Below are positions 31,636-47,898 of a DNA stretch of 64,000 nucleotides, piece by piece. The position numbers were made by a program, and so were the translations under genes. Source of the DNA: Halopseudomonas pelagia (GTDB lineage Bacteria > Pseudomonadota > Gammaproteobacteria > Pseudomonadales > Pseudomonadaceae); assembly GCF_009497895.1 (NCBI RefSeq), contig NZ_CP033116.1, positions 2,542,001 through 2,606,000 of the forward strand, given 5' to 3'. Position 1 is the stretch's first letter. Each line of letters starts with the position of its first letter. The notes under the pieces were generated by a model that was not told the DNA's origin, searched no databases, and saw only the letters and a list, made by a program, of their open reading frames with translations.

Positions 31636-32499
31636 TCATAGCATGTCGAGGGGGATCTTCAGGTAGCGGGTACCGTTGCCCTCGGCTGGTGGCAGTTGTC
31701 CTGCACGCATGTTGACCTGCACCGACGGCAGGATCAGCGTCGGCATGCCCAGTGTGGCGTCGCGACTGCTGCGCATGGCAACAAAGTCCGACTCGTTGAT
31801 ACCTTCGTGTACATGCACGTTGTGTGCGCGCTCTTCCGCAACGCTGGTCTGAAAGCGATACTCGTCGCGCCCGGGTGCCTTGTAGTCGTGGCACATGAAC
31901 AGGCGGGTATCGTCGGGCAGGGTAAATAGCTTGCGGATTGACTGAAACAGCGTGTGAGCGTCGCCACCGGGGAAGTCACAGCGCGCGGTGCCGTAGTCCG
32001 GCATGAACAGCGTGTCACCTACGAACCCGGCATCGCCGATCAGGTAGGTCATGCACGCCGGAGTATGGCCCGGGGTATGGAGCGCACTGGCCTGGATATT
32101 GCCCACCTGAAAGGTATCGCCATCCTTGAACAGGCGGTCGAACTGACGGCCATCGGTGGCAAACTCGGTACCAGCATTGAACAGTTTGCCAAAGGTGTTC
32201 TGTACCACGGTGATGTTCTCGCCAATTGCCAATTGGCCACCCAGTTCACGCTTAAGATAGGGTGCGGCCGAAAGGTGGTCGGCGTGCACATGGGTTTCCA
32301 GCAACCAGTCCACCTGCAGGTGATTGTCTCTAACAAACTGGATCAGACGATCAGCGCTTGTGTGCGAGGTGCGCCCAGACGCCGGGTCATAGTCCAGTAC
32401 CGAATCAATGATCGCGCAGCGCGCTGTGCTAGGATCCGAAACCACATAGCTATAGGTACTAGTAGCCGAATCGAAAAATTCGTTAACCTTGGGTTGCAT
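31636..32499 (-). CDS. Metallo-beta-lactamase-fold persulfide dioxygenase (Blh/ETHE1-like)
   Basis: 287 residues with the metal motif ETHVHADHLSAAP (residues 68-80), a downstream GHTPACMTY histidine and GDTLFMPDYGTARCDFPGG, the signature of the ETHE1/Blh/CstB branch. These enzymes oxidise glutathione persulfide to sulfite with O2 and one Fe2+. AAAGGAG lies seven bases before the ATG. First gene of the operon, followed by the sulfide:quinone reductase-like gene and SulP. Confidence 0.9.
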   Translation of the reverse strand: MQPKVNEFFDSATSTYSYVVSDPSTARCAIIDSVLDYDPASGRTSHTSADRLIQFVRDNHLQVDWLLETHVHADHLSAAPYLKRELGGQLAIGENITVVQNTFGKLFNAGTEFATDGRQFDRLFKDGDTFQVGNIQASALHTPGHTPACMTYLIGDAGFVGDTLFMPDYGTARCDFPGGDAHTLFQSIRKLFTLPDDTRLFMCHDYKAPGRDEYRFQTSVAEERAHNVHVHEGINESDFVAMRSSRDATLGMPTLILPSVQVNMRAGQLPPAEGNGTRYLKIPLDML

Positions 32500-32517
32500 G
32501 ATGGTGCTCCTTTCTTG

Positions 32518-32533
32518 ATACCCCTAGGGGTAT
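32518..32533. promoter_or_regulatory. Palindromic operator ATACCCCTAGGGGTAT between CsoR-type regulator and persulfide operon
   Basis: A perfect 16-bp palindrome lies 18 bases upstream of the dioxygenase start, next to an AT-rich TATATAAT box. A C-tract and G-tract flanked by AT is the usual architecture for CsoR/CstR-family binding sites, and a gene for such a protein is divergent 90 bases away. Confidence 0.75.
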
Positions 32534-32622
32534 ATAATTAAGAAAGATCGTACCTGTTTTTTTGTTCTATGCTTAGATTATTAAGGAATATAAAATCTAA
32601 GGTTATTCTTCCGCCATAGGCC

Positions 32623-32910
32623 GTGACTGAACTGATGAACGTTAATGAAACGCAAGAATCAAAAAGCCGCGACGCGATACTCAAACGTCTTGCTCGGGTG
32701 GAAGGGCAGGTGCGTGGAATCCAGTCGATGATCCAGCGGGGGGATGAATGCGAGAAAGTGGCGCAACAGTTCAGTGCGGCGCGCAAGGCACTCGACAAGG
32801 CTTACCAGGAAATGCTCGTGTGCTTGGCGGAAGATGCCATCCTCGACCCGAACCAGAGCAATGCCGAAAAGCTGGCGCAGCTGCGCGGCATCTTTACCAA
32901 GTACACCTGA
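32623..32910 (+). CDS. CsoR/FrmR-family transcriptional repressor
   Basis: 95 residues of the all-helical DUF156 family: RLARVEGQVRGIQSMI in helix 1, the first-site Cys43 (GDECEKVAQQFSAAR) and Cys67 (EMLVCLAED). The Cys-His-Cys copper set of CsoR is not complete: nothing at the His position, and Cys67 lies five residues before the place expected for CstR Cys60. It is therefore unlikely to be a classical copper sensor. Position next to persulfide genes suggests a sulfane-sulfur sensor of CstR type with an unusual second Cys. The start may be ATG 32635 rather than GTG 32623. Confidence 0.85.
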   Translation: MTELMNVNETQESKSRDAILKRLARVEGQVRGIQSMIQRGDECEKVAQQFSAARKALDKAYQEMLVCLAEDAILDPNQSNAEKLAQLRGIFTKYT

Positions 32911-32916
32911 GTTACC

Positions 32917-33408
32917 GTGGCCACGCTCAAATACCTCAACGGATACAGCCCCAGCCTGCAACAGCAGGTGCAGGCGCTGATCGACAAGAACCAGCTCGGC
33001 AGTTGGCTGGAACAGCGCTACCCGCCGCAAACCCAACATCTGATCCAGTCCGACGCCGCGCTGTATGAATACACCCAGCGCCTCAAGCAGCAACACATGC
33101 GCAGCAGCGATCCGGTCAGCAAGGTGTTCTTCGACACCCGCATGCACGTCATCGACAACGCTCTGGGCCAGCACCAGTTCGTCAGTCGGGTGCAGGGCAG
33201 CAAGCTCAAGCGCAAGAACGAAATCAAAGTCTCAGCGATCCTGAAAACCCTGCCAGAACCGTTACTGCGCATGGTCGTGGTGCATGAGCTCGCGCATCTG
33301 CGCGAGAAAGAGCACAACAAAAGCTTCTACCAGTTGTGCCAGCATATGGAGGCGGACTATCACCAGTTGGAGCTGGACCTGCGGTTGTTTTTGACCTTGC
33401 GCGGTTAG
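32917..33408 (+). CDS. YgjP-like metallopeptidase-domain protein
   Basis: 163 residues ending in a zinc-peptidase-type motif VVHELAHLREKEHNKSFY, in which HExxH and the later His resemble WLM/DUF45 (YgjP) proteins. The function of the family is unsettled, and no signal peptide is present. It starts six bases after the CsoR-type gene with GTG, so the two are probably co-transcribed. Confidence 0.8.
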   Translation: MATLKYLNGYSPSLQQQVQALIDKNQLGSWLEQRYPPQTQHLIQSDAALYEYTQRLKQQHMRSSDPVSKVFFDTRMHVIDNALGQHQFVSRVQGSKLKRKNEIKVSAILKTLPEPLLRMVVVHELAHLREKEHNKSFYQLCQHMEADYHQLELDLRLFLTLRG

Positions 33409-33423
33409 GGCAGTATTCCTCGG

Positions 33424-33843
33424 TCATTTCAGCGGCTGCACCTTGAACACCGCCTTGGCCGTCGCGCAGAGCTGATCGTTGGAGTAGATATTCGCGTCAG
33501 CAAAGCACAGCGATTTACCAACACGCGACGGCGTCGCACGCACTTCCACCCAATGGCCCACGTGCGCCGTACCCAGAAAATCGATCGTCATGCTCACGGT
33601 CACCAACCCACCGATGTTCTCCAACTGCCTGGCACAACTCAGCCCCATGGCATTATCCGCCAGCGCCGAGAGAAGCCCGCCATGCACAAACCCGCGGCTG
33701 TTCACGTGCGGCGCATCGGCCAGCAAACCCAGGCAGAAGGTGCTCTCAACGCTGGCAGCGTAAATTGGTTCCCAAGGATCGGTCAGGCCGCTTTTGCGGG
33801 TGTGGGGTTTGAAACCGGCGGGTATGGCTTGTGTTGTGTCCAC
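33424..33843 (-). CDS. PaaI-type hotdog thioesterase
   Basis: 139 residues with a hotdog-fold helix HGGLLSALADNAMGLSC and the strand TVSMTIDFLGTAHVGHWVEV, typical of PaaI/YdiI acyl-CoA thioesterases. The GTG start has GGAGAA seven bases before. It converges with the YgjP-like gene. Substrate unknown. Confidence 0.85.
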   Translation of the reverse strand: MDTTQAIPAGFKPHTRKSGLTDPWEPIYAASVESTFCLGLLADAPHVNSRGFVHGGLLSALADNAMGLSCARQLENIGGLVTVSMTIDFLGTAHVGHWVEVRATPSRVGKSLCFADANIYSNDQLCATAKAVFKVQPLK

Positions 33844-34031
33844 GATAGTTCTCCGACTGATAGTTAAATCTATATATAGACCAGTCGTTATAATTTATCG
33901 AGAAATAAGTGCGTGCGAGATGCCATGGAAAGGGCGAGGCCTGAAACAGATCGAGTCTGCTTTGCTCTTTTATCAGCCAGGGTCCACCGAATTACACATT
34001 TCTTTTGACCCGGTAGGGGTAATTTCGTTTA

Positions 34032-34047
34032 CTGTATGTACGTACAG
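34032..34047. promoter_or_regulatory. LexA box of umuDC
   Basis: CTGTATGTACGTACAG fits the LexA consensus CTGT-N8-ACAG as a perfect palindrome, 22 bases before the umuD start at 34069. It indicates SOS induction of umuDC. Confidence 0.9.
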
Positions 34048-34068
34048 TATTTATCAAGGTTACCTGAT

Positions 34069-34506
34069 ATGAACGTCCTCACCAATTTAGGCCCCTTGGG
34101 CAGCTCGCTGATTGAGCTGCCTTTTTTTTCCTCGCGTGTTTCTGCAGGCTTTGCCAGCCCGGCGCTGGACCATATGGAGCAGGCGCTGTCCCTTGATGAA
34201 CTGCTGGATATCGACGCGCCGCACACCTACCTGGTGCGTTCAGCCGGCGACAGCATGGAAGGTGCAGGCATATTTGATGGCGATATTCTGGTGGTCAACC
34301 GCGCCGTTAAAGAGCAGAACGGCAATATCGTGATCGCCGCCATTAACGGCGAAGCGCTGGTAAAGCGCCTGTGCATCCGCGGTGACGAGGTGGTGCTGAG
34401 AGCTGAGAACCCCAAGTATCCGCCGGTATATGTGATGGAAGGCGATGAGCTGCTGATCTGGGGTGTGGTGAAATTCAACATACACGGGCATCTGTGTCAT
34501 GGCTGA
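34069..34506 (+). CDS. umuD: UmuD, Pol V autoproteolytic subunit
   Basis: 145 residues of the S24/LexA-type family. The self-cleavage site is Ala26-Gly27 (RVSAGFASPA), the catalytic pair is Ser62 (AGDSMEGAGI) and Lys99 (ALVKRL). RecA-stimulated cleavage gives UmuD', which joins UmuC as DNA polymerase V for error-prone translesion synthesis. The ATG at 34069 follows the LexA box; an ATG at 34036 lies inside the box. It overlaps umuC by eight bases. Confidence 0.93.
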   Translation: MNVLTNLGPLGSSLIELPFFSSRVSAGFASPALDHMEQALSLDELLDIDAPHTYLVRSAGDSMEGAGIFDGDILVVNRAVKEQNGNIVIAAINGEALVKRLCIRGDEVVLRAENPKYPPVYVMEGDELLIWGVVKFNIHGHLCHG

Positions 34507-35770
34507 CCCGGTGTTTGCGTTGATCGACTGCAACTCTTTTTATGCCAGCTGCGAGCGGGTGTTCCGGCCTGATCTGGCGCGCACGCCCATTGTGGTGCTG
34601 AGCAACAACGACGGCTGCGTCATCGCTCGCTCTGCCGATGCCAAACCTTTCGTCAAAATGGGTGCGCCTTACCATCAGGTGCATGAAGTACTGAGGCAGC
34701 ACGGCATCCTCGCCTTCAGCAGTAATTATTCGTTGTACGGTGATATCAGCGAGCGCGTCATGACCGTGATCGAAAGCCTGGTACCGGGCCTGGAGGTGTA
34801 CTCAATTGACGAAGCCTTCGCCGATATGAACGGCATCCAGGACCGGGACCAGCTAGGCCGCCAGATAAGAGCCACCGTGCTGAAAACCACCGGCATACCC
34901 ACCTGTGTCGGCATAGCCCAGACCAAAACATTGGCCAAGCTGGCGAACCACGCGGCCAAACGTTGGCAGAAGCATTACGGCGGGGTGATGGATATCTGCG
35001 ATCCGGAGCGTCGAGACAAGGTGCTGAAGGCGGTCAAGGTCAATGAAGTATGGGGAGTAGGCCGGCGGATGAATGAACACCTCACCAACATGGGCATAAA
35101 AACCGCGTGGGATCTGGCCCAGGCAGACGCCTGGACCCTGCGCCAGAAGTTCAGCATCGTAGTGGAAAAGACCGCCCGCGAACTGCGCGGCGTATCCTGC
35201 CTGGCGCTGGAAGAAGCGGCCGCGGCCAAGCAGGAAATCTGCAGCAGCCGCTCATTCGGTCACCGCCTGAAAGACATAGAGCCGATTCGCGAGGCGGTGG
35301 CCACTTACGCATCCCGCGCATGCGAGAAACTAAGGGCGCAAGGCTCGCTGTGCAAAAAGGTCCGGGTCGCCATCCGCACCGGCATGTTCAACCCCACCGA
35401 AGCCAAATTTGCCAAAGGCATAGTCTGCGAACTGCCATACCCCACGGACGATACCCGCTTGATTATCCGCGCCGCGCTACAAGGGTTGGAAGCCGTGTTC
35501 AGGGAAGGGCACGCTTATGCCAAGGCGGAAGTGATGCTGCTGGATCTGCGCCAACAGGGCGAGTTCACCGATGACCTGTTCGCAGAGACTCAGCCCGTCG
35601 CCGCTGAAAAAGTCATGAGCGTGCTGGACAGCATCAACAACCGCTGGGGCAGGGGCACCATGCGCCCCGCCCGGGTGCCGGTCACGCCCGAATGGGGCAT
35701 GAAGCAGGAACTGAAAAGCCCGAACTACACCACCCGCTGGGATCAGTTGTGGACGGCGCGGTGTAAATGA
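34499..35770 (+). CDS. umuC: UmuC, Y-family DNA polymerase V catalytic subunit
   Basis: 423 residues, full length. The Y-family palm is clear: FALIDCNSFYASCERVF with the first metal-binding Asp, and VYSIDEAFADM with the second acidic pair. The little-finger domain follows (KQEICSSRSFGHRL) and the DUF4113 tail (WGMKQELKSP to the end). A nearly identical 3' fragment lies at 18026-18346. With umuD it makes an SOS-induced lesion-bypass operon; umuDC operons are frequent on mobile DNA. Confidence 0.95.
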   Translation: MADPVFALIDCNSFYASCERVFRPDLARTPIVVLSNNDGCVIARSADAKPFVKMGAPYHQVHEVLRQHGILAFSSNYSLYGDISERVMTVIESLVPGLEVYSIDEAFADMNGIQDRDQLGRQIRATVLKTTGIPTCVGIAQTKTLAKLANHAAKRWQKHYGGVMDICDPERRDKVLKAVKVNEVWGVGRRMNEHLTNMGIKTAWDLAQADAWTLRQKFSIVVEKTARELRGVSCLALEEAAAAKQEICSSRSFGHRLKDIEPIREAVATYASRACEKLRAQGSLCKKVRVAIRTGMFNPTEAKFAKGIVCELPYPTDDTRLIIRAALQGLEAVFREGHAYAKAEVMLLDLRQQGEFTDDLFAETQPVAAEKVMSVLDSINNRWGRGTMRPARVPVTPEWGMKQELKSPNYTTRWDQLWTARCK

Positions 35771-35774
35771 AGGC

Positions 35775-35800
35775 TTAGGTTGCTCCTTAAGGAAACCTAA
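35775..35800. terminator. Inverted repeat after umuC
   Basis: TTAGGTTgCTCCTTAAGGAaACCTAA is an almost perfect palindrome directly after umuC. It may end the umuDC transcript or serve as a regulator site for the Fic gene; no T-run follows. Confidence 0.4.
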
Positions 35801-35875
35801 AATAACTCAGCACTTTATTTTATTTATCTGTTTAAGTTAAATTAACGACGACCGTTATTTTAACCTGGAGCAAGC

Positions 35876-37033
35876 ATGAAACGCGGCACAACAGGGCATT
35901 ACGTCCCTAACATCGCGGGTGGCGTGGCCTGCAAAGCCTTCATCCCGGCAGCGCTACCACCACAGCCGCCGCTGCAACTGGATAACAAGCTACAGGGCCG
36001 TATCAGCCAGGCCATGTTGGCGCTCGGTCGTCTGGACGCCATCAGCACGCTGCTGCCAGATGCACGGCTGTTCCTGTACAGCTATGTGCGAAAAGAAGCG
36101 GTCATGTCCTCGCAGATCGAAGGCACGCAATCCTCCCTTAGTGACCTCATGCTCTATGAGATGGATGGCATGCCCGGCGTGCCCATGGATGACGTGCAGG
36201 AAGTCTCCTGCTATGTCAGCGCGCTGGAGCTGGGCATGCAGCGCATCCGAGACGGTCACCCCATCAGTTTTCGACTGCTGACTGAAATGCATGAAGCCCT
36301 GATGACCTCCGGTAGAGGCATCAGTAAGGGGCCAGGTGAGTTCCGCAAGAATCAAGTGTGGATTGGCGGTCATCGCGCAGACGAAGCCACCTTTGTACCC
36401 GCGCCTGCAAACGAGCTAGCCAATTGCTGGGCCGAGCTGGAACGCTTCATCAATGATGTGCCGGAAGCTACAGATCCCCTGATTAAAGCCGCCCTGGCGC
36501 ATGTGCAGTTTGAGACCATTCACCCCTTTATGGATGGCAATGGTCGCCTGGGCCGCCTGCTGATTCCGCTGATACTGGTCAGTGCCAATATTCTTGGCCA
36601 GCCGTTGTTATACCTGTCGGTGTTTTTCAAAAAACATCGGCAGATCTATTACGAACACCTGCAACAGGTGCGCGTAACCGGAGACTGGGAAAGTTGGCTG
36701 CTATTCTTTGTCGATGCTGTCGCCGACACCGCCACGCAAGCCGTGAGCACAGCCCAACAGCTCAATACCCTGCGCAGTGATCACAGTGAACTGGTAAGCG
36801 GTCTTGGCCGCATGGCGCCGTCTGCCAGGCAGGTATTGGAGGTACTCTTTGAATACCCTATTGCCAATATCAACACCCTGGTAAAACATGGCGGCATCAC
36901 CGCAGCTACTGCAGGCAAGGTTATGGAGCTGCTATCCCAGCCCAGTCTAGCGCTGGTACGTGAACTCACCGGCCAGAAACGCAACCGGGTATTTGCCTAC
37001 ACTGCCTACATCGACATTCTGAATCAGGACTAA
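35876..37033 (+). CDS. Fic-family AMP transferase-like protein (class II, self-inhibited)
   Basis: 385 residues. An N-terminal Fic_N region holds the inhibitory helix motif SSQIEG at 78-83 (S-x-x-x-E-G), whose Glu82 is expected to block ATP gamma-phosphate. The Fic core motif HPFMDGNGRLGR (216-227) is complete, so it should transfer AMP to a hydroxyl of a target protein once relieved. The C-terminal 70 residues form a winged-helix-like part (YPIANINTLVKHGGITAATA). A CTGGAG site precedes the ATG. Such stand-alone Fic proteins occur in accessory regions; target unknown. Confidence 0.9.
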   Translation: MKRGTTGHYVPNIAGGVACKAFIPAALPPQPPLQLDNKLQGRISQAMLALGRLDAISTLLPDARLFLYSYVRKEAVMSSQIEGTQSSLSDLMLYEMDGMPGVPMDDVQEVSCYVSALELGMQRIRDGHPISFRLLTEMHEALMTSGRGISKGPGEFRKNQVWIGGHRADEATFVPAPANELANCWAELERFINDVPEATDPLIKAALAHVQFETIHPFMDGNGRLGRLLIPLILVSANILGQPLLYLSVFFKKHRQIYYEHLQQVRVTGDWESWLLFFVDAVADTATQAVSTAQQLNTLRSDHSELVSGLGRMAPSARQVLEVLFEYPIANINTLVKHGGITAATAGKVMELLSQPSLALVRELTGQKRNRVFAYTAYIDILNQD

Positions 37034-37170
37034 CCCTTTTCGAGTTGCTTTGGCTACCTTCACGCATGCAGACAAATGCAGCGGGATAATGCAAAGTAGG
37101 TCACATAATGAAGCGGGCCCAAGCGCACGGGCCTGACCGCCTTCTTGCTGACAAGGATTTTGGAGAGAAC

Positions 37171-37521
37171 GTGTCCGAGATAAAGCAACTGACTGAGAAA
37201 GTGCTGGCATTCCGGGATGAGCGCGACTGGAAGCAGTTTCACAACTCCAAGGACCTGGCCCTGTCGCTGGTGCTGGAAGCTACCGAAGTGCTGGAAATCT
37301 TCCAGTGGAAGCAGGACCAGGCAGCCATCGACGGCGTTGCCTTGGAGCGCAAGCAAGACCTCGCCGACGAACTGGCCGACGTGTTCTGCTACACGCTACT
37401 GATGGCCAACGACCTGGGCATCGATCTGGCTGAAGCACTGAAAACCAAGATCGAAAAGAACAGCGCCAAATACCCCGTAGACAAAGCCAAAGGCTCCGAC
37501 AAGAAATACACGGAGCTATAA
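37171..37521 (+). CDS. MazG-like nucleotide pyrophosphohydrolase
   Basis: 116 residues from GTG 37171, which has GGAGAG a few bases before. The all-alpha NTP-PPase pattern is present: LALSLVLEATEVLEIFQW (ExxE) and DLADELADVFCYTLL (ExxD), binding Mg2+. Small MazG-like enzymes remove pyrophosphate from (often non-canonical) NTPs. It ends three bases before the DUF2075 gene, so the pair are very probably co-expressed; the frame is open to 37108, but that extension has no good start signal. Confidence 0.88.
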   Translation: MSEIKQLTEKVLAFRDERDWKQFHNSKDLALSLVLEATEVLEIFQWKQDQAAIDGVALERKQDLADELADVFCYTLLMANDLGIDLAEALKTKIEKNSAKYPVDKAKGSDKKYTEL

Positions 37522-37524
37522 CGT

Positions 37525-39957
37525 TTGATCATCTATCAGACGGACAAACAGCATTTTCTGGATGATGTGTTCAAGCGCGATATCGAAGCTATCGTGCTGG
37601 AATCCTTTCGCAACCGCACTGGCAGGTCTGTCTCCAAGGAAGAGATACGCTCCTGGGCCTCCTCCCTGGTTTATATGGGCAAAGTACTGAACGACGACGC
37701 TATTCCCAATGACTGCGGCGTTGCCATTGAATACATGATCCCACAGACGGCCAAGCGCGTTGATTTTCTGCTGACCGGCAAGAATCACGAAGACAAGGAC
37801 TGTGTGGTCATCGTGGAGCTGAAACAGTGGGAGTCAGCTCGCAAGACCAGCAAGGACGGCATCGTTTCAACCCGCTTTGCCCGTGGCGAAGCAGAAGTTG
37901 GCCACCCCTCATACCAGGCCTGGTCCTATGCCGCCTTGCTGGAAGGCTATAACGAAGCTGTGTATGACGGCGGCGTGCAACTGCGTCCCTGCGCTTACTT
38001 GCATAACTATGCCGACGCCAAAGGGCCGATCAATGATCCGTTCTATGCGGCGCACATCGAGCGAGCCCCGGTCTTTCTCAAGGGCGATGACGAGCGTGAT
38101 CGGCTGCGGCAATTTATTCAAAAGCACGTCAAGCATGGCGACAAGGGCAACACGCTCTTTCTGATCGAGGGCGGCAGAATAAGGCCATCCAAAAGCCTTG
38201 CAGATGGCTTGCTCGGGCTGCTCCAGGGCAATCAGGAGTTTGTGCTGATCGATGACCAGAAGCTGGTCTATGAGAACGCTCTGAGTCATGCCAGGGCCGT
38301 CCGCGAGAATGGCAAGCGTGTTTACATCGTTGAAGGTGGCCCGGGTACCGGGAAATCGGTAGTAGCAGTAAATCTGCTGGTAGGGTTGACCAGCGCGGAC
38401 ATGGTTGCCAAGTACGTCACCAAGAATGCAGCGCCTAGAGCAGTGTACGAAGCCCGCCTGGTGGGCTCCTTCAAGAAAACCTATATATCCAATCTGTTCG
38501 TAGGCTCCGGTGGTTTTACCGAAACGGAAAGGAACCAGTTTGATGCGCTGGTAGTGGATGAAGCGCATCGCTTGAATGAGAAGTCCGGCCTGTACGGCAA
38601 CCTTGGCGAGCATCAGGTCAAGGAGATCATTAACGCTGCCCGATTCTCTGTGTTCTTTATCGATGAATCGCAGATCGTCACGCTCAAGGATGTAGGCAAG
38701 AAAGAAACCATTCGCCAATGGGCCGCAGAACTCGGCGCCACGGTGTTCGAAGGGGCGCTGGAATCGCAGTTTCGCTGCAGTGGCTCGGATGGCTACCTGG
38801 CATGGCTGGACAACACCCTGCAGATACGTCCGACAGCTAACGACAAGCTGGACATAGCCGAATACGACTTTCGAGTGGTCGATTCACCGACAGAGCTGAG
38901 AGAACTGATCCTCAAGCGCAACCGGGAAAGAAACCGGGCGCGCATGGTCGCCGGCTACTGCTGGAAATGGCCAAGTAAAAAGAATCCAGCAGCCTACGAC
39001 ATAGAAATGCCAGAGCATGACTTCAAAGCCCGCTGGAACCTTACCAAGGACGGTGGCCTGTGGATGGTCTCAGACGATTCAGTGCATGAAGTTGGCTGCA
39101 TTCACACCTGTCAGGGGCTGGAAGCCGACTACATCGGTGTAATCGTGGGTGATGATTTTATAGTGCGCGACGGCCAGGTGATTACCCAGCCGGAAAAGCG
39201 CGCCTCGTCCGACCGCTCGATCTCAGGCCTGAAGACGCTCGCCAAAACCGACCCTGCATTAGCAAAAGAGAAAGCCGACGCCATCATCAAGAATACATAC
39301 CGCACCTTGATGACTCGCGGTATGAAGGGTTGTTACGTCTACTTCACCGACGCGGAAACCGCAGCCTTTTTCCGTAATGGGATAATTGGCACACGCGACC
39401 AAGCAGACTCACAGAGCAACAATCAAACGGCCCATGCAGCTGCCGAATCTGCAGCAAAGTTTCCATTCCCCGTATTGCTCGGAGAAGAAGGCAGATCCAA
39501 CCCCCGCGCAGTGCCGCTTATTCCGCTGCAGATAGCTGCTGGCTCTTTTTCTGAATCGCAAGCGTTGGATATGAATGCCGACGAATGGGTGGAGCTGCCT
39601 GAAGGCTTTAGTGCCAGCGCGGACTTGTTCGTCGCTCAGGTGGTGGGCGAATCAATGAACCGCCGTATTCCCAATGGCGCTTGGTGCTTGTTTCGATCCA
39701 ACCCCAAAGGCACACGCCAGGGGAAGATAGTGGTTGTCCAGCATCGTAGTATTGATGATGTAGAGACCGGTGGTAGCTATACGGTGAAGAAATACTACAG
39801 TGAAAAGGTAGCGACCGAGGATGGGGCAGGGTGGGTACATCAGCGGATTAAGTTGTTGCCGGAGTCTACGGATAGTTCGTTTCAGCCGATTTTGTTAGGG
39901 GTTGAGAAGCAGGATCACATAAGGGTTTTGGCTGAGCTTGTAGTGGTTTTGGTTTGA
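37525..39957 (+). CDS. Nuclease-like / DUF2075 helicase / S24 peptidase-like fusion
   Basis: 810 residues with three recognisable parts. Residues 65-105 hold a PD-(D/E)xK-like nuclease core, RVDFLLTG (Asp80) and VIVELKQW (Glu98, Lys100). Residues 255-625 are a DUF2075 superfamily-1-type helicase: Walker A GGPGTGKS (261-268), Walker B LVVDEAHR (342-349), FIDESQ, and late motif TYRTLMTRGMKG. Residues 690-760 look like an S24/LexA-type peptidase: VVGESMNRRIPNGAW with Ser710 and SYTVKKYYS with Lys755. Translation starts three bases after the MazG-like gene. The domain mix fits an anti-phage or DNA-damage system; cutting or self-cleavage activity is inferred, not shown. Confidence 0.85.
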   Translation: MIIYQTDKQHFLDDVFKRDIEAIVLESFRNRTGRSVSKEEIRSWASSLVYMGKVLNDDAIPNDCGVAIEYMIPQTAKRVDFLLTGKNHEDKDCVVIVELKQWESARKTSKDGIVSTRFARGEAEVGHPSYQAWSYAALLEGYNEAVYDGGVQLRPCAYLHNYADAKGPINDPFYAAHIERAPVFLKGDDERDRLRQFIQKHVKHGDKGNTLFLIEGGRIRPSKSLADGLLGLLQGNQEFVLIDDQKLVYENALSHARAVRENGKRVYIVEGGPGTGKSVVAVNLLVGLTSADMVAKYVTKNAAPRAVYEARLVGSFKKTYISNLFVGSGGFTETERNQFDALVVDEAHRLNEKSGLYGNLGEHQVKEIINAARFSVFFIDESQIVTLKDVGKKETIRQWAAELGATVFEGALESQFRCSGSDGYLAWLDNTLQIRPTANDKLDIAEYDFRVVDSPTELRELILKRNRERNRARMVAGYCWKWPSKKNPAAYDIEMPEHDFKARWNLTKDGGLWMVSDDSVHEVGCIHTCQGLEADYIGVIVGDDFIVRDGQVITQPEKRASSDRSISGLKTLAKTDPALAKEKADAIIKNTYRTLMTRGMKGCYVYFTDAETAAFFRNGIIGTRDQADSQSNNQTAHAAAESAAKFPFPVLLGEEGRSNPRAVPLIPLQIAAGSFSESQALDMNADEWVELPEGFSASADLFVAQVVGESMNRRIPNGAWCLFRSNPKGTRQGKIVVVQHRSIDDVETGGSYTVKKYYSEKVATEDGAGWVHQRIKLLPESTDSSFQPILLGVEKQDHIRVLAELVVVLV

Positions 39958-40106
39958 ATCTTCTTCTAGCGTCGGTAAGAGACTATTCAGAAGTGGCTCA
40001 AGTGCATTTGGGTTCTTTAACGTCTGCTGCGCGATCCTGGATTCAGCACCTCCCGATTGGGCTCGGACCCCATTACATATGAGTAATAATTGAGAGCGAG
40101 AACATT

Positions 40107-42587
40107 TTGATTGATCGGCTGAAAATTTGGGTGAGCTCAAAATCTTGGTTTTGGGTACTCCGGACCTGGCAAGGAAGACTTAGTTTTGTCTTTGAACGCA
40201 GCGCGTATAAGAGGGGTGCTTCAGCCAGCGAAGCAAAGGAAAATACCCGAATTTTAGGGTCTATCGCATGGATCGGCGTGAAAGGCCTTTTTGTGGTCGT
40301 TGTTGTTTTGGCCACCCTAAAGTTCATAGAGAATTATATCGAAAACTATCTGGGTTGGCCCCCACCACTCAGCGCAGACGATGAAGATTTCACCATCGAC
40401 CAGCTCAGGCTTTACGCTCAACTGCTCACGGCGATATTCTCGATCTACTTCGCTACAATTGGTATTATACTGAGTTCTGGTTATACAAGACTTCGCCGGG
40501 ATATCATCCAGATGCTCACCAGGGAGCAGGTTGGCAGCGTGTACGCTCGGGTTCTAGTGCTTGCAGCGATTTTTTGTTTATTAGCCTCGGCTGCGCCGAT
40601 ATTTGGATTCGAGCCTGGCCTGCTAATTTATGTTGTCGGTACAGTTTTGACTTTGTTGAGCGCTTTGGCTTTGTTTCCCCTGGGTCAAAGGATTTTCAAC
40701 TTTTTTGATCTCAATTTGCTTGTTCGGAGTGAGATCCTCCCCAGCATTGCTCGACACATTGAGGGCGCAGCAAACGATCGGAATTCAATTTCTTTATCGA
40801 ACCATCACTCAAAAGCGGCGCGACAATCTCTTGAACAGCTCTTCTATATTGATGATCGTGTTAAAACTGGTAAGGAAAGCTTAGGAGACAGTCTACCTGC
40901 GTTGAGCAATGATTATACGGCCTTGCTGCTGCACTACTTTCAGAAGAAACACACTATCAGCCAAGAAAGCTATTGGTTTCCAAGAAAAAGCAAACACAAA
41001 CAATGGTTTTTAGCTGGTGACAGTACGACGTCTATGGCGTTGCAAATGAGCAATCAGCAAATACTGGTTGAGGAGCAGCCAGATTATCAATGGCTTGAAA
41101 ATGAGATCGTGGAACGATTGGCGGGCCACGTTGAACTCGCATTTCAGGTTGGCGACTTTAATCTTGCGATGAAGCTTATAGGTCGATTTTCAATACGCAC
41201 TTCCGCGTACGCAGAAAGGTTCCAGTTTGACGTCGGTATGCAGGAGCTTGAAAGATTCAAAGAGATCATTGAAGAGAGCTTTGCTTCATCGATTGTCATA
41301 GCGGAAGATAAAGCATGGAAGACAAAAGTTGGCATAGCAGATACATGGGCTGCACTGGGAAGCAATCTCTGCATAGAAACTCTACGCAGAATGATGACCT
41401 TTGAGAAAGAGCTTAAACAATTCTTTGAAAAGGACGAATGGAGCAGGAGGTCCCTGCGCCGTCTCCCAGCTTTTCTACAGATAGAGCTCGCCTTCATCGT
41501 TGAGCGCATTGAGTTTGAGCAAGAGATCGAGGGAGAGCGCCTATCCAAGCCAAAATATGTGCAACAGTTGGCGGTCCAAAAGCTTTTACAGCATTATTTG
41601 AGAGTTCTGTCTGCGATACGTGATTTTTATCAACGCATGGTTCCAGACTTTGTAGGTTCAATTGCAAATTTGAAAATGTCAAAGGCCGCAACGCAGGTGC
41701 TCTTAGCAAGCCTGCATAGCCATTGGAAAGTGCTACGCTGGTTTGACGAGGTCACGAAGCTCTTGGACCGGTATCAGAAGTATGGTTACTATACAGATGA
41801 GCTGTATAAACTGTGTGAGATAAATATTGCTGAGATGTCCACACAGCTTGCTTCGGCGAGAGATGATGCAATTTCTATGCTCGGCAGCGGAGATATAGTG
41901 GGTCATATCTTTGAACCGAAACACAATGATGAATTGCCGGATCATTTTGGACAAATCTATTTCGAATTGGCCGAAGCATGTATAGGTGCCCTTGAGCAGA
42001 ATGATGAAAGCAAGTTAGATAGGGTTCTCCCTATGTTCTTGTCCCTAGCATTTCTCGCTGCAGATTCTAAGTTCGCGGACCCTTCGCTCGAAATAAACGA
42101 TGAGTTCCGACTTCATCTAATTTCAACGGTGATAAATGATCTGGCTTCAGTTCTAGGATTTGCCATGCTCTACGGGGCGTATTTCGATAATGAGAAGTTG
42201 TCGGAGAGTGCCCTAGCTAAATTCGACACTTGGATTGAGCGCGCTGCCGACAAACAAAAATACCTTAAAAGAATGGTTTTCCTCTCAAATCCCTATAGTT
42301 TTAGCATTGGCGCGTCGCCGCGTGGTCTAATTCGTATCAACTGGAAGATGTCGTTCGAACATCGTGCGAGAAACGATGGATTTGACGACCAGATGACTAT
42401 GGGCAAGGGGAAGCAGCACCCAGATAAACTTGTGAGAGAATTTCTAAGGTCACTCTCTGATGCGTCTCATCTGTTTTTTGCAAAAAAGATCGTTCCTCAA
42501 CTTGATACAGTTGACTTCGACATCGATCACCAGATCTCATCCCTCGCTCGCCGGTTGCGAGAAGGCGACAAAAAGGGCGGAGTATGA
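40107..42587 (+). CDS. Unknown 826-residue membrane protein, first gene of a two-gene module
   Basis: I do not recognise the family. A basic N-terminus is followed by four membrane segments at about 53-74, 106-126, 148-168 and 171-192 (FVVVVVLATLKFIEN; LLTAIFSIYFATIGIIL; VLVLAAIFCLLASAAPIFG; LLIYVVGTVLTLLSALALF). The remaining 630 residues are cytoplasmic by the positive-inside rule, mainly helical, with no evident catalytic motif. Start is TTG 40107 after an in-frame stop at 40080-40082. The coding DNA is visibly richer in A and T than its neighbours, a sign of transfer. Its stop overlaps the next start (ATGA), so the two proteins probably work together. Confidence 0.75.
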   Translation: MIDRLKIWVSSKSWFWVLRTWQGRLSFVFERSAYKRGASASEAKENTRILGSIAWIGVKGLFVVVVVLATLKFIENYIENYLGWPPPLSADDEDFTIDQLRLYAQLLTAIFSIYFATIGIILSSGYTRLRRDIIQMLTREQVGSVYARVLVLAAIFCLLASAAPIFGFEPGLLIYVVGTVLTLLSALALFPLGQRIFNFFDLNLLVRSEILPSIARHIEGAANDRNSISLSNHHSKAARQSLEQLFYIDDRVKTGKESLGDSLPALSNDYTALLLHYFQKKHTISQESYWFPRKSKHKQWFLAGDSTTSMALQMSNQQILVEEQPDYQWLENEIVERLAGHVELAFQVGDFNLAMKLIGRFSIRTSAYAERFQFDVGMQELERFKEIIEESFASSIVIAEDKAWKTKVGIADTWAALGSNLCIETLRRMMTFEKELKQFFEKDEWSRRSLRRLPAFLQIELAFIVERIEFEQEIEGERLSKPKYVQQLAVQKLLQHYLRVLSAIRDFYQRMVPDFVGSIANLKMSKAATQVLLASLHSHWKVLRWFDEVTKLLDRYQKYGYYTDELYKLCEINIAEMSTQLASARDDAISMLGSGDIVGHIFEPKHNDELPDHFGQIYFELAEACIGALEQNDESKLDRVLPMFLSLAFLAADSKFADPSLEINDEFRLHLISTVINDLASVLGFAMLYGAYFDNEKLSESALAKFDTWIERAADKQKYLKRMVFLSNPYSFSIGASPRGLIRINWKMSFEHRARNDGFDDQMTMGKGKQHPDKLVREFLRSLSDASHLFFAKKIVPQLDTVDFDIDHQISSLARRLREGDKKGGV

Positions 42588-43573
42588 GGTTTTTTAGGGC
42601 AGCGCCTTCATGCGGGTATGACTCTCAAGATGAACAATTGGAGTTAGTTGATAGGCTTTTCATCAAGCGCGAAACACAAAAGCCAGGCTTTAATCGACGG
42701 ATGTTCGATGAAGATTTTTCGCGGATGTTCCATGTAACAAACCAAAGAGACAACCTATTCGAGTTCGTATCGAATGACGATGAGCTCACTCAAAAGCTAC
42801 TAGGTAATGTTAATACCAGATACACACAGCGCTCGCCTGATAAAACAGTACATGATTTGGTTGAGGAAATAGCTCGATCGTTAGTTTCGTCCGGAAGAGC
42901 CTACTATTTCCTTCACGATGACCCTGCGCACCAAGAAATGCACATAGTTCCGTTTAGTCCACGTGGCGTTGTTCGTTTCTTTGGTATATACATTCAGTGG
43001 ATACCCAAACGCATGGAAATGCACTGGGATCGAGAAGACGAGGAAATTCCTAGAGAGATTCGTGTCTTGGACGCATCCAAAGTAATGCGCTTGGATATGC
43101 CCACATCAATTAAACGCATGCTCTCCGCGCAGAACAAAACTTTGGATACACTTGATAAACACCAATTTGAGGTTTCCAATTTCCCCCCTCCAGCCACACA
43201 TGCGAATCCAAATCCTACCAATCAGTTCGACTTCCGCGTGTGGAGGGACATTCAAGAGCGCGCTTTGTATCGTGCCACGCGACGTACTGGCTGGAGAGGT
43301 AGAAAATCTGATTCGTCAAAGTGCTCAGACTTCTTCAGCTGTCACCGATTGATCCGGTTTCGGCGAAACCAACTCTTGCTAAGAAATAACATTTTGAAAC
43401 AGCTCAGTGGTGAGCTGTCCAGGATTGGAAAAAGTTGCAAAGCGGATTTCTCAGTTGATATCTCGGCTACCGATAATTTATCTAGCGTAGCACATCTTGA
43501 CGAATTGGAAATGCGCCTGGCGAGTGAGACTGCGAGATTTAACGAAGTCATCGACTACTGCTACGGGCGGTGA
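42584..43573 (+). CDS. Unknown 329-residue soluble protein, second gene of the module
   Basis: No family recognised and no signal peptide or membrane segment. The N-terminal half has a mixed alpha/beta look, including SLVSSGRAYYFLHDD, EMHIVPFSPRGVVR and IREIRVLDASKV-type strands; the order (a helical region, GRAYYFL, then a loop-rich sheet and a short 'decision' strand) faintly recalls phage portal proteins, but this is weak. The C-terminal third is helical and basic. It overlaps the membrane-protein gene by four bases and is equally AT-rich. Confidence 0.65.
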   Translation: MRFFRAAPSCGYDSQDEQLELVDRLFIKRETQKPGFNRRMFDEDFSRMFHVTNQRDNLFEFVSNDDELTQKLLGNVNTRYTQRSPDKTVHDLVEEIARSLVSSGRAYYFLHDDPAHQEMHIVPFSPRGVVRFFGIYIQWIPKRMEMHWDREDEEIPREIRVLDASKVMRLDMPTSIKRMLSAQNKTLDTLDKHQFEVSNFPPPATHANPNPTNQFDFRVWRDIQERALYRATRRTGWRGRKSDSSKCSDFFSCHRLIRFRRNQLLLRNNILKQLSGELSRIGKSCKADFSVDISATDNLSSVAHLDELEMRLASETARFNEVIDYCYGR

Positions 43574-43717
43574 AAGGCAGATTGAAAGGCCGATAAATTT
43601 AGCAGCAAATTTGATGACAGATTTACTATCATTCCCGGTCCGGCTGATTCGCTCAGCGGGAATTAGGGTTTGATGAAAATCTCAGCTGCAAAAAGCAAAT
43701 GATCAAAAGGATTCGAC

Positions 43718-44599
43718 GTGCAATTCGAGCGCTTTGCAAAAGAACCATTAGCAATCCAGTATCTTGGTACTGAGTACACGCAGCCATGTCTAGATGCTTT
43801 GCGGTCATTGATCCAGTTAAGAGTGCCGATATCGCAGGTAAAGCTGCTTACCGCTAGCGAAGGTCAGACGAATATTCACGGCTTTCTGATTAGTACTGAG
43901 CTGGACGAGCTTATCGCTATCCGCCCGGGTTTTTCGTCTGGCTACCCAGATGAGGGGTCTCGAGGTCTTGCTACCGCCATTGAGCTGCTGCGTACATTTC
44001 GTTTTGAGGTTGAGGAATACTCGGTATCAGGCAAGCTGCTTGCGCGTGTCAAGCGGGCAGCTTTGACTTTGCAGGATCTAAAGTTTCTGGAAAGCGCTAA
44101 TCCCATTATGCCCATCGGGCTTGACGACTACGTTTACGATGCAGGTCTGTTTGGGCGGCCTCCCGGAGTTTTCCTGCGAGGGTTTGAACCCTGTATTCCT
44201 TTAGCGCTAATTGATGAGCGGCTAGCAGATTTGGTCGTGGATTTTTTTGAGCATTCAAATGCTCGATTAATGAGTGGTTATGCGCGACTGGAGGTCATCA
44301 TCAAAAACCGGACGGGGCTGAATGAATCTGCAGGCAAACTATTCAGAGCTGCATTTGACGGAACGTCGCCCTATTTGATGTGGCCGGAAATCGACCAAGG
44401 TGAGCGTGTTGGGCGGGTTGGTCTGTTCGTAAGTGTTTACCAAACCTATCGAAACAGGAGGGCTCATAACGAGGTGGTTGCGAACGAACATCTTGATCTA
44501 ACCGAGCTGCTGCTACTGAACAATTTATTTGTATTGGAGCGCTCTGCCGTGCCCTCCGGAAGGTTATTCCCAACCATTCATGATGATCCGTTCAAGTAA
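43718..44599 (+). CDS. Ymh-family (TIGR02391) HEPN-like protein
   Basis: 293 residues. The C-terminal 120 match the hypothetical Ymh family: YARLEVIIKNRTGLNESAGK, LFRAAFDG and VYQTYRNRRAHNE, in which RNRRAH is an R-x4-H motif of HEPN ribonucleases. The N-terminal 170 residues are an unknown alpha/beta region that may sense a trigger. A GGATTCGACGTG start context gives GTG 43718. Ymh/HEPN proteins occur in defence regions as likely RNA-cutting effectors; that role is inference here. It sits 145 bases after the two-gene module. Confidence 0.7.
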   Translation: MQFERFAKEPLAIQYLGTEYTQPCLDALRSLIQLRVPISQVKLLTASEGQTNIHGFLISTELDELIAIRPGFSSGYPDEGSRGLATAIELLRTFRFEVEEYSVSGKLLARVKRAALTLQDLKFLESANPIMPIGLDDYVYDAGLFGRPPGVFLRGFEPCIPLALIDERLADLVVDFFEHSNARLMSGYARLEVIIKNRTGLNESAGKLFRAAFDGTSPYLMWPEIDQGERVGRVGLFVSVYQTYRNRRAHNEVVANEHLDLTELLLLNNLFVLERSAVPSGRLFPTIHDDPFK

Positions 44600-45204
44600 T
44601 TGGGATCGCAAGAAGGTCGGTTCTGGAGTGCGTTGATTTTCCTGCGCAATACTGCAGCTACGCAACATCGTAAGCAAAATTCAGGTCATATGAAGATTTC
44701 TACATACCATAACGAAGGGCTGCCGCTGGATAACTGGCACACCACAAGTGGTTGCTCTGGGTGGGAGGCCTGCTGCTTGGCTTGTCGATTGAGGCCATTC
44801 TTATTGGGAGTAACTGGGGTCAGATGAAGATTGATCCCAGAGCTTGTTGACTCTGCGTGCGAGGTCCAGCAGCACCGCAACAACCCGATCTGCTGAACGC
44901 CACAAGTGAGTCATCTCTGAGGAAAATGCCAGTGCTCACCACCAAGCATTGATGTAGCGGAGGCGTCTCACGCTTGATAGGCAGGCTTGACGGCTAATGT
45001 CAGCTTTCAAGTTGTCGCCTTCAGAGCTACAAATATAGCCTTTAGAGCAACACTGCTAGGTGTCTTTCTTAGCCTCGTTCTGACTCTTAGCCGCTATCAA
45101 GCAGAAGCGCTGAGCCGGTAACAGCCGGCTTGTCATTTGCCCATACCCGCAAGATGATGGTGCCACCGTGACCAGCCAAGCTGGTCGTTATTCCGGAGAT
45201 AATA
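44600..45204. other. 605-nt stretch without a convincing gene
   Basis: I see only short frames. One plus-strand piece at 44734-44850 encodes a hydrophobic stretch (KWLLWVGGLLLGLSIEAILI) but follows a stop codon and lacks a start signal, so it may be the tail of a lost membrane-protein gene. A GC hairpin (GAGCCGGTAACAGCCGGCTT) lies at about 45112-45131. This probably marks the right edge of the accessory block. Confidence 0.5.
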
Positions 45205-45582
45205 ATGAACAAAGTACTGTCTGTGGTTGTAGGGTTTTTTGGACTGATGTTCCTGCTGATCGGGTTGCGTTGGCTGGTCGATCCGTCTGGCGCGGCAGGT
45301 CAGTTGGGTATGCCATTGCTGGACGATGTCGGGCGCAGTACTCAGATTGGTGACTTCGCCGCGTTCTTTCTCACCTTAGGCGTGCTTATTCTTTTTGCTC
45401 TGGTGACGTCTCAGCGCGTCTGGTACTACCCCGCAGCGATGTTGCTAGGCATCGCTGCGTTGGGGCGGGTGCTGGCTTGGGCGGTGCATGATGCGGCGCT
45501 GGCGCTTGATCTGATCGTCCCGGAGGTGATTATTGCCGCTGTGTTGCTGTTGGCGTCGCGCCGGCTGGGTAAGACGGGTTAA
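45205..45582 (+). CDS. Small DUF4345-like membrane protein
   Basis: 125 residues with four predicted membrane segments (VVVGFFGLMFLLIGLRWLV; FFLTLGVLILFALV; AAMLLGIAALGRVLAW; VPEVIIAAVLLLAS). The overall pattern fits DUF4345-type small membrane proteins of unknown function. GGAGATAATA precedes the ATG. Confidence 0.7.
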   Translation: MNKVLSVVVGFFGLMFLLIGLRWLVDPSGAAGQLGMPLLDDVGRSTQIGDFAAFFLTLGVLILFALVTSQRVWYYPAAMLLGIAALGRVLAWAVHDAALALDLIVPEVIIAAVLLLASRRLGKTG

Positions 45583-45636
45583 CGCTACATAGTCAACCCA
45601 ACAGTTTCAGCTTTACGGCCACAAATGACGCCGACG

Positions 45637-45972: not shown

Positions 45973-46203
45973 TCTGATCCCTGATATTGGTTTTGTTGTA
46001 ATGCATTAGCTGTCCGTCAGCGAGGTTATGTCAGATGCCAGGGCTGGGCAATACTAGACCTGATCCTGATTTCTCACGCGGCAGACTTATTATCAACTAA
46101 TGGCACAAACTGAAGCTGGTACGTGTTCTGGGTGGCGTGTTGATAGTCCTTGCGGTGCTGCCAGTGATCAGCTGGAAGCGCTAGCGCGCACCGCATGAGG
46201 GCT

Positions 46204-47898
46204 CTATAGATTGGTATCCGTCACTGCACCTTCCGAGGCCGAGGCGACTGTTTTCGCGTATTTCGCCAGCACGCCGCGGGTATAGCGCGGTGCGGGTTCT
46301 TGCCAGGTACTCAGGCGCCGGGCGATTTCCTCATCAGTCAGGTTGAGGACGATTTGCCGGGTTTCCGCGTCGATGGTTATCTGATCGCCGTCCTGCACAA
46401 TGGCTATTGGGCCGCCTGCCTGGGCTTCTGGCGTGACATGGCCAACCACAAAGCCGTGGCTCCCGCCGGAGAAACGGCCGTCGGTAATCAGCGCGACCTT
46501 GTCGCCCAGTTGCTGGCCCATGATGGCTGAGGTGGGGCTGAGCATTTCGCGCATACCTGGGCCGCCTTTGGGGCCTTCATAGCGGATAACCATTACATCA
46601 CCGGCGACTATAGTGCCAGCGAGTATGGCGCTCATGGCCTCTTCTTCGGAGTGAAATACCCGGGCCTTGCCAGTGAACTGCAAGCCTTCCTTGCCGGTGA
46701 TCTTGGCCACTGCGCCGCCTGGGGCGAGGTTGCCCTTGAGGATGACCAGATGGCTGTTGCGCTTGATCGGGTTATCGAAGCTGCGAATGATGTCCTGTCC
46801 TTGCGGGTAGGGCTGCACCTTGGCCAGGTTGTCGGCTAGCGTCTGGCCGGTGACGGTCAGGCAGTCACCGTGCAGCAGGCCGCGCTCCAGCAGCATCTTC
46901 ATCAGTGGCTGAATACCGCCAATCTGGATTAGCTCGGACATCAGATATTGACCACTGGGGCGCAGGTCGGCCAGTACCGGTACTTTCTCGCCGATACGAG
47001 TGAAGTCGTCCAGGGTAATTCTCACGCCGATAGTCGAGGCCATGGCGATCAGATGAAGCACGGCATTGGTTGAGCCGCCCAGGGCGATAATCACGGTAAT
47101 GGCGTTCTCGAAGGCTTCACGGGTCATGATGTCGCTGGGTTTGATGTCCCGGCGCAGCAGTTCAAGGATGGCCTGGCCGGCGCGTTCACAGTCCTGGGTC
47201 TTGTCTGCGGATACGGCGTCCTGGGCCGAGCTGCCGGGCAGGCTCATGCCCATGGCTTCAATGGCCGAGGCCATGGTGTTGGCGGTGTACATGCCGCCGC
47301 AGGAGCCCGCGCCCGGAATCGCCGTTTCCTCGATCTGCTTGAGCTCGATATCGGATACCGTACCCTTGGCATGGCCACCCACCGCCTCGAATACGGAAAT
47401 GATGTCGGTGTGGTTCTTGCCCGGGCGAATGGTGCCGCCGTAGATAAAGATGGCTGGCCGGTTCAGCCGCGCCAGACCCATGATGCAGCCGGGCATGTTC
47501 TTGTCGCAGCCGCCGATGGCGATAATGCCGTCATGGCCCATGCAGCCGGAGACGGCTTCAATGGAATCAGCAATGATCTCGCGCGATACCAGCGAGTACT
47601 TCATGCCTTCGGTACCCATGGAAATGCCATCGGAGATGGTGATGGTGTTATAGATCACGCCTTTGCCGCCTGCTGCATTGATGCTGGCGTTGACGGTCTC
47701 GGCCAGGCCGTTGATGTGCATGTTGCAGGGCGTGACCATGCTCCAGGTGGAGGCTACACCAACTTGGGGCTTGCGAAAGTCATCAGCGCTGAAGCCAACC
47801 GCATGCAACATGGCGCGGCTGGCGGCGCGTTCGACGCCTTCTACCACTTGGCTGGAGTGTTTGCGCGAAGGCTTGGCGGGGGTGTTGTCCTCTGTCAT
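46204..47898 (-). CDS. ilvD: Dihydroxy-acid dehydratase IlvD
   Basis: 564 residues with the conserved blocks of IlvD/Edd: [16 protein letters not shown] (iron-sulfur ligand Cys), [20 protein letters not shown] (second Cys) and [22 protein letters not shown] near the C-terminus. The enzyme makes the 2-oxo acids for valine and isoleucine synthesis. The length is that of the shorter group (about 560 residues) rather than the roughly 615-residue enterobacterial type. Single gene, no attenuator seen. Confidence 0.93.

Follow-up and report, generated by a model that had tools for sequence, protein, structure and literature searches.

A candidate two-gene anti-mobile-DNA module that pairs a MazG-like enzyme with a nuclease-helicase carrying a predicted self-cleavage switch

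Cleaved LexA ends in -Val-Ala-Ala and is destroyed by ClpXP, while the cut in UmuD occurs at Cys-Gly. Human SLFN11 and SLFN14 carry a Schlafen-core RNase at the N terminus. Bacterial Schlafen defence work, as represented in passages of PMC12839542, concerns Schlafen RNases; protease control of a defence nuclease has been demonstrated for the gated nuclease-protease pairs Hachiman, AVAST, and canu, according to passages of PMC12799240; and passages on DefensePredictor (PMC13092281) list MazG, MazG-C, and a nucleotide-modification-associated domain among predicted, unvalidated defence domains, with UDG in the same figure legend. We examined a 64,000-nucleotide stretch of a Halopseudomonas contig (NZ_CP033116.1; hereafter, the window), in which a MazG-like gene precedes a gene for an 810-amino-acid (aa) protein that combines a nuclease domain, a helicase domain, and an S24-type autopeptidase domain. 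On balance, we think that this cassette is probably a horizontally spread, two-gene module directed against mobile DNA (probably phages), whose effector carries a damage-sensing self-cleavage switch. The candidate defence role draws on genomic context, sporadic distribution, and family ties, whereas the substrates, the RecA trigger, and the direction of the switch are proposed by analogy.

Anatomy of the cassette and its autopeptidase domain

The two genes are separated by only three bases (Table 1). The MazG-like gene was assigned a GTG start, and the longest open reading frame (ORF) in the same frame opens at an ATG at 37108. A GGAG motif that may serve the second gene sits inside the MazG-like gene, which suggests that the two genes may be translationally coupled; no sigma-70-like promoter was found between 36900 and 40300. 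By sequence, the PDB entries nearest to the PF12643-matching MazG-like protein are the pyrophosphatase 4qgp (expectation value [E] 2.7e-19) and the dCTP pyrophosphatase 1/RS21-C6 structures 6sqw and 2a3q (1.7e-18). Its ExxE (residues 36-39) and ExxD (residues 67-70) motifs are intact, and the metal-site residues E36, E39, E67, and D70 are present in all 72 non-gap rows of a 73-row alignment. Moreover, the ratio of nonsynonymous to synonymous substitution rates (dN/dS) between the window and H. pelagia was 0.03 for this gene. With both the family match and the ExxE...ExxD metal site present, the protein is, as far as sequence can tell, a relative of the DCTPP1-type dCTP pyrophosphatases.

Relatives of the 810-aa protein were collected in a single scan of 84,980 species genomes, which returned 202; the locus counts out of 80 given below refer to the best 80 of these, a set biased towards the query. 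The protein alignment comprises those 76 of 83 loci with a frame of at least 600 aa (L003, L033, L034, L047, L048, L078, and L081 were excluded); L001 is the window, and L002 and L004 have the same sequence, so the 76 rows hold one duplicate and the tree was built from 75 rows. The nuclease domain alone retrieved nothing from Foldseek at E ≤0.001, and a second look with VIA-align found a PD-(D/E)xK-like fold. Residues D80, E98, and K100 are invariant in 76/76 rows, and are therefore not there by chance, and E69 and Q131 are likewise invariant; the fold and the D...ExK residues together place the domain in the PD-(D/E)xK nuclease superfamily.

The helicase region matched SLFN-g3_helicase (PF09848, presumably the former DUF2075; E 7.5e-103, residues 264-609), and its superfamily 1 (SF1) motif residues K277, D345, E346, Q383, R417, Q530, and R598 are invariant in all 76 rows, so that the profile and the motifs agree on a Schlafen group 3 helicase. 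Fold matches included SLFN11 and UvrD, with Dna2 and RecD2 also among them; a PDB sequence search with the whole 810-aa protein gave no match. Between the window and H. pelagia, dN/dS was 0.038 for the nuclease, 0.031 for the helicase, 0.21 for the linker, and 0.069 for the S24 domain, and the predicted local distance difference test score (pLDDT) of the linker falls below 50 at residues 623-644.

The C-terminal region matched Peptidase_S24 in Pfam (PF00717; E 2.6e-7; 30.8 bits, with the cut-off at 23.3; residues 664-760) and a transcriptional repressor in PHROG (9.4e-8). An hhalign comparison with three partners gave 96.4% for the CI-type repressor of phage Lrm1, 78% for the host LexA, and 17% for the UmuD of the window, with the SAG of Lrm1 lining up with the AAG of the S24 domain; against the PDB, the S24 profile had no sequence match at E ≤0.1. 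In the 32 alignment rows with an S24 domain (one being the duplicate), Ser710, Met711, and Gly673 never vary, and position 755 is a lysine in 30, while L037 and L069 carry a lysine one alignment column off. Residues 672-673 are Cys-Gly in 21 rows (those of Bacteroidota and of the L037/L059/L069 group) and Ala-Gly in 11 (ten Pseudomonadota rows and the Verrucomicrobiales row L008), and the latter all read hydrophobic-Ala-Ala before the Gly. A cut between A672 and G673 would leave a large fragment ending in -LQIAA; the corresponding site of the host LexA is RVAA followed by G. Another Halopseudomonas genome contains a short, S24-only-like stretch (L003 789-1145), which is perhaps a decayed fragment.

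The S24 domain is under purifying selection. Because this selection is accompanied by an invariant cleavage dipeptide and an invariant serine, self-cleavage of the S24-bearing 810-aa protein is very likely. The family match, the Ser-Lys dyad, and the [Ala/Cys]-Gly site assign the domain to the S24/LexA autopeptidases, and a conserved cut site, a maintained domain, and a loose linker are together what the anatomy of an autocleaving switch would be expected to look like. C-terminal domains of the CI type dimerise, and the S24 domain might thus be a protease relic kept for dimerisation; however, the cleavage dipeptide and the serine are invariant, and the lysine nearly so, across two kinds of nuclease and several phyla, which dimerisation alone would not preserve, and we regard this alternative as very improbable.

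Much of this anatomy had been anticipated by a first-pass annotation, made from the sequence alone, which proposed a MazG-like gene lying three bases ahead of a nuclease-helicase-S24 fusion gene. The ORFs and Pfam matches confirm that arrangement, the named residues Asp80, Glu98, Lys100, Ser710, and Lys755 are present and conserved in the alignment rows, and the fold and family check that it called for returned a PD-(D/E)xK-like fold for the nuclease and a family match for S24. Its helicase P-loop is also present (GGPGTGKS), but the P-loop lysine is Lys277 rather than residue 267, which is a tyrosine.

Table 1. Coordinates in the window of the cassette, its parts, and the hotspot borders
Feature	Coordinates	Strand	Basis
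GGAG, Shine-Dalgarno-like, ahead of the MazG GTG	37162..37165	+	direct sequence reading
MazG-like nucleotide pyrophosphohydrolase, 116 aa, DCTPP1/RS21-C6 type	37171..37521	+	PF12643, E 2.1e-21
GGAG within the 3' end of the MazG gene, possible ribosome site of the second gene	37512..37515	+	direct sequence reading
Nuclease-helicase-S24 protein, 810 aa, TTG start	37525..39957	+	ORF reading, Pfam, alignment
PD-(D/E)xK-type nuclease domain, residues 1-238	37525..38238	+	E69, D80, E98, K100, Q131 invariant
Schlafen-group-3 SF1 helicase domain, residues 239-613	38239..39363	+	Walker A K277, Walker B D345-E346
Linker, flexible and the least conserved region, residues 614-660	39364..39504	+	pLDDT, dN/dS
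S24 (CI/LexA-type) serine autopeptidase domain, residues 661-810; Ser710, Lys755	39505..39954	+	PF00717, PHROG, hhalign
Predicted self-cleavage site Ala671-Ala672/Gly673 (cut at the slash)	39535..39543	+	[AC]-G in 32/32 S24 rows
Thioesterase (4HBT), left hotspot border, adjoins the cassette in H. pelagia	33424..33843	-	
Dihydroxy-acid dehydratase family (ilvD-like), right hotspot border; 96% identical in H. pelagia	46204..47898	-	

Linkage to MazG and exchange of modules

Across many phyla, the large gene has a MazG-like gene adjacent and on the same strand in 72 of the 80 loci: in 71 within 400 bases (67 upstream and 4 downstream, the latter all with actinobacterial titles) and upstream in L017, where a second weak match blurred the distance count. 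The other eight are (i) L008 and L043, for which the available upstream sequence spans just 332 and 3 bases, (ii) five Limnobacter-clade loci, and (iii) L012; one MazG-like gene was found elsewhere in each of the 4 genomes searched among the 6 of groups (ii) and (iii), L023 and L010 not being included. In Limnobacter alexandrii (L011 7521-9442), where no MazG adjoins the large gene, the next genes downstream encode an unmatched 271-aa protein and an ATPase of the histidine-kinase type (PF02518).

Sampling gave the same picture of linkage and showed how rarely the large gene occurs. A match was carried by 5/369 genomes of the class (window included), by 8/398 of the phylum, and by 3/38 relatives, counting the window and one fragment. 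With the window excluded, the evenly drawn class and phylum samples yielded 11 positive genomes, and all 11 have MazG beside the large gene (as a partial profile match in G295, split over two frames in G434, and downstream in G309); of the 10 in which no contig end cuts the large gene, 6 have S24. Since no more than 71 of 185 sampled genomes contain PF12643, usually in a single copy, chance adjacency must be low, and we put it, as an order-of-magnitude estimate, at about 1e-4 per locus. From these surveys of sequence, we conclude that the MazG and nuclease-helicase genes are genuinely linked.

Might the MazG-like protein then be an antitoxin, or counterweight, to a toxic nuclease-helicase? A small, closely spaced gene lies upstream in 68/80 loci, as expected of such a toxin-antitoxin-like pair. 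However, the catalytic residues of MazG are retained, in the four actinobacterial loci, as in L085 and L089 (both Halomonas-like), the gene lies downstream, and the Limnobacter-clade loci keep an intact large gene with no MazG nearby, all of which makes this alternative quite improbable. An origin as a phage gene was also considered and rejected: the viral_contigs scan gave just 4 distant loci (28-35% identity, with MazG upstream in L129 and L130), and one phage record, that of Microcystis phage Mwe-JY31 (L090, PP438423.1), holds an S24-less MazG and nuclease-helicase pair annotated as hypothetical.

S24 behaves differently from MazG. It was matched in 31/80 loci, and the core exists without it in the other 49, so that, in the sequences compared, S24 is an optional add-on outside the core. 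On the 75-row core tree, S24 changes state at least 7 times and MazG at least 5 times; the tree came from a quick search, some of its MazG-minus rows are contig ends, and gain and loss are indistinguishable in it. By this tree, the S24 switch was gained or lost repeatedly. The S24 domains of L037, L059, and L069 (one titled Patescibacteria and two "uncultured bacterium") share just 22-26% identity with those of other groups, whereas their cores share 53-58%, and in a quick S24 tree they group with LexA/UmuD, apart from the CI-like rest, although a single origin was not rejected (approximately unbiased test, p 0.185). No separate S24 gene was seen next to S24-less homologues in the available flanks, which are of unequal length and in which the S24 profile may miss UmuD/LexA-like genes.

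The nuclease, too, appears to be exchangeable. In four Pseudomonadota genomes (L088, L133, L134, and L135), MazG stands beside a helicase of the same family whose N-terminal domain is GIY-YIG-like; the GIY-YIG Pfam scores were 22.2 bits in L088 and 20.2 bits in L134, against a cut-off of 22.6, L133 had no match, and the motif residues were judged by eye. Over the length matched, L133, L134, and L135 share 60-63% identity with L088. An S24 domain that keeps the A-G, Ser, and Lys is present in three of the four, and the fourth is cut by its contig end. As both MazG and the switch are kept where the nuclease is exchanged, both would seem to belong to the system.

The co-occurrence survey suggested in the first-pass annotation thus found the pair linked elsewhere (72/80 loci and 11/11 other sampled positive genomes). 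Its central idea, a self-cleaving nuclease-helicase with a nucleotide-pool partner, stands insofar as the switch residues are invariant and MazG is linked; S24, however, appears to be optional rather than part of the core.

Genomic setting, proposed function, and rival readings

The thioesterase and ilvD borders of the hotspot are common to the window and H. pelagia (L004), the two species for which shared borders were established, whereas the cargo between them differs; five other Halopseudomonas genomes matched at the thioesterase border only, plus loosely similar regulator and short-chain dehydrogenase/reductase genes in two. The umuDC, Fic, and HEPN neighbours noted at first pass are all in place. 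Upstream of the cassette are a umuD-like S24 gene and a umuC-like gene (34036-35770) and, directly adjoining it, a SoFic-type Fic gene (35876-37033; PADLOC SoFic, 6.2e-115), while downstream are two unmatched low-GC genes and a Ymh-family gene (PF09509, 43718-44599), from a family classed as HEPN in passages of PMC3710099. The Ymh protein is likely to be an RNase-type conflict gene product of the same hotspot. The unmatched pair (40107-43573) encodes 826 and 329 aa with a 4-base overlap, lacks Pfam matches, and has a GC content of 45.7% against 55.6% for the window; by eye, the 826-aa product shows hydrophobic, membrane-like stretches near its start.

In H. pelagia, the cargo downstream of the cassette (L004 7614-12387) comprises ThsB-like TIR, Nmad2, MazG_C, UDG-family, SLOG cluster3, and TIR genes, and resembles nucleotide-modification defence candidates; two dissimilar Fic genes lie in or near the same hotspot (L004:2965-3999 and L122 ~7868-8848). 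As an insertion site, no RNA element was found by Rfam at gathering level in 32000-48500, and no tRNA in the window. Neighbours of some plasmid relatives include AbiEi/AbiEii (L089), type III CRISPR, restriction endonuclease, DUF3578 with restriction/methylase, and methyltransferase genes. A DUF3578 gene lies upstream in three Bacillota relatives (L144, L145, and L154; ahead of MazG in Priestia), which hints at another partner.

These surroundings bear on a reading of the cassette as a housekeeping SOS repair module without a defence role, in which a Dna2/RecD2-like nuclease-helicase works with a nucleotide-sanitising enzyme and S24 ties both to SOS. In its favour, the fold search returned Dna2 and RecD2 among others, DCTPP1-type enzymes cleanse the deoxynucleoside triphosphate (dNTP) pool, and umuDC lies nearby with a LexA-box-like site. 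Three LexA-box-like matches (up to 3 mismatches) occur in the window against 0.21 expected, of which only that at umuD (34032-34047, CTGTATGTACGTACAG) is near the cassette; its overlap with the initial ATG of the umuD-like ORF makes a gene start at 34069 probable. However, the system is rare and sporadic, the sister species carries other cargo at the same hotspot, umuDC found no match in the 19.9 kb of H. pelagia sequence, and the cassette has no LexA box of its own. We consider the repair reading unlikely.

In the anti-mobile-DNA reading, the SF1 helicase would load on single-stranded or branched DNA (or RNA) of the invader and the N-terminal nuclease domain would cut it, while the MazG-like partner would hydrolyse dCTP or modified or damaged dNTPs, thereby starving or cleansing the pool for the invader (or for repair synthesis). 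The S24 domain, added at the C terminus in this branch, would cleave itself at Ala672-Gly673 when RecA filaments form on damaged DNA, a trigger proposed from what its family does, and would thus part the nuclease-helicase from the C-terminal domain. As an off-switch, this cut would remove a dimerising domain and expose a new -Ile-Ala-Ala end, a LexA-like -AA for ClpXP, and so act as a built-in restriction alleviation that protects damaged host DNA. Damage-linked restriction alleviation has precedent in works cited in PMC4231737, a paper which itself disputes that a general SOS response accounts for EcoKI alleviation.

Alternatively, the S24 domain could hold the nuclease-helicase inactive until RecA-stimulated cleavage, following phage attack or damage to the host, frees the effector to destroy invader or whole-cell DNA, much as cleavage activates UmuD or as partner proteases free gated pro-nucleases. 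The same anatomy fits such an arming switch, 21 of the 32 S24 rows have the UmuD-type Cys-Gly site, and control of nucleases by proteolysis has been demonstrated as a theme in defence (PMC12799240). Against this, the core in the 49/80 loci that lack an S24 match cannot depend on release by S24, and the proteins of the 11 A-G rows would, once cleaved, end in a degron-like -AA; we hold arming to be rather unlikely. The off-switch is slightly favoured over it because of those S24-less loci, the LexA-like end in the A-G rows, and the restriction-alleviation precedent. Tentatively, a fuller version of the anti-mobile-DNA reading would be a new class of defence effector with an SOS fuse in cis: MazG-linked Schlafen group 3 helicases with interchangeable nucleases would have acquired, on perhaps more than one occasion, an autopeptidase of the CI/LexA type, which is triggered by RecA and which either leads to clearance by ClpXP via an -AA degron (A-G branch) or arms the effector (C-G branch).

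Several observations weigh against the module and switch that we propose. With regard to the switch and the protein that bears it, (i) no LexA-box-like match (up to 3 mismatches, whole window) lies upstream of the cassette, (ii) most of the 80 loci do without S24, (iii) cleavage in the 21 C-G rows would leave a C-terminal -Cys instead of -AA, (iv) the -AA end belongs to the cleavage consensus and is thus weak evidence for degradation, and (v) PDB sequence searches with the nuclease and S24 profiles gave no match. With regard to the partner, MazG is missing beside the large gene in five Limnobacter-clade loci and L012; G688 has a second, more distant homologue (L143) without MazG; and MazG adjoins the large gene on the same strand in only 6 of 17 hand-fetched plasmid and phage relatives (L089-L091 and L144-L157, eight of which are Bacillota matches of the GIY-YIG-like variant without S24), L156 having weak MazG-like pieces on the opposite strand. 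Finally, a neighbour survey (135 of 252 ORFs from 71 of 83 chosen loci, taken in order L004-L048 from our own ORF calls, with no matched control) speaks for the proposal with Fic in 7/135 and RhuM in 4/135 of the scanned ORFs, but against it in that many of the neighbours are ordinary genes.

The proposal would join two fields that seldom meet, the SOS/LexA self-cleavage switch and bacterial defence nuclease-helicases. A disarming switch would show how a host spares its own damaged chromosome from a DNA-attacking helicase, whereas an arming switch would be a new route to sense infection via RecA. The conserved nucleotide-pool partner of these bacterial relatives of the SLFN11 helicase makes nucleotide destruction beside helicase effectors testable, and self-cleavage offers an easy readout, a single band.

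Comparison with described systems

In titles and abstract openings of open-licence literature (preprints and subscription papers lying mostly outside), we found no account of a DUF2075 and MazG pair or of an S24-fused nuclease-helicase. The defence idea is not wholly without precedent, as MazG is among the predicted defence domains and PDC-S41 of PADLOC, itself just a phage-defence candidate, is a distant candidate relative, although the passages on DefensePredictor (PMC13092281) name neither a Schlafen group 3 helicase nor an S24 partner for MazG. PDC-S41 matched the window protein at E 1.2e-13 in two stretches (best, residues 386-607) and L142 at 2.9e-17, also in two (best, residues 4-295), but with 657 positions its model cannot accommodate the S24 part. 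The PDC-S label we take to denote a single-gene candidate; the MazG-like protein matched no PADLOC model.

Nhi and AbiO share the SF1 helicase core (38-40 bits, residues ~236-393; AbiO 6.4e-11, Nhi 1.8e-10), whereas the N-terminal nuclease and the S24 domain lie outside these matches; residues 236-393 cover model positions 178-307 of 470 in Nhi (38.1 bits), short of full-length membership. The N terminus of human SLFN11 and SLFN14 differs from the PD-(D/E)xK or GIY-YIG-like nuclease of this family. In the Hachiman, AVAST, and canu systems, as described in the passages of PMC12799240, a trypsin-like or caspase protease acts on a separate nuclease of the metallo-beta-lactamase type, whereas here a LexA-type autopeptidase would act in cis. 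CI, LexA, and UmuD share the [Ala/Cys]-Gly site, the Ser, and the Lys with this S24 domain, but there it accompanies a DNA-binding domain or serves a polymerase, and here it is fused to a nuclease-helicase. Taken together, these comparisons suggest that the cassette belongs with the nuclease-helicase defence candidates, from which its unusual predicted switch distinguishes it.

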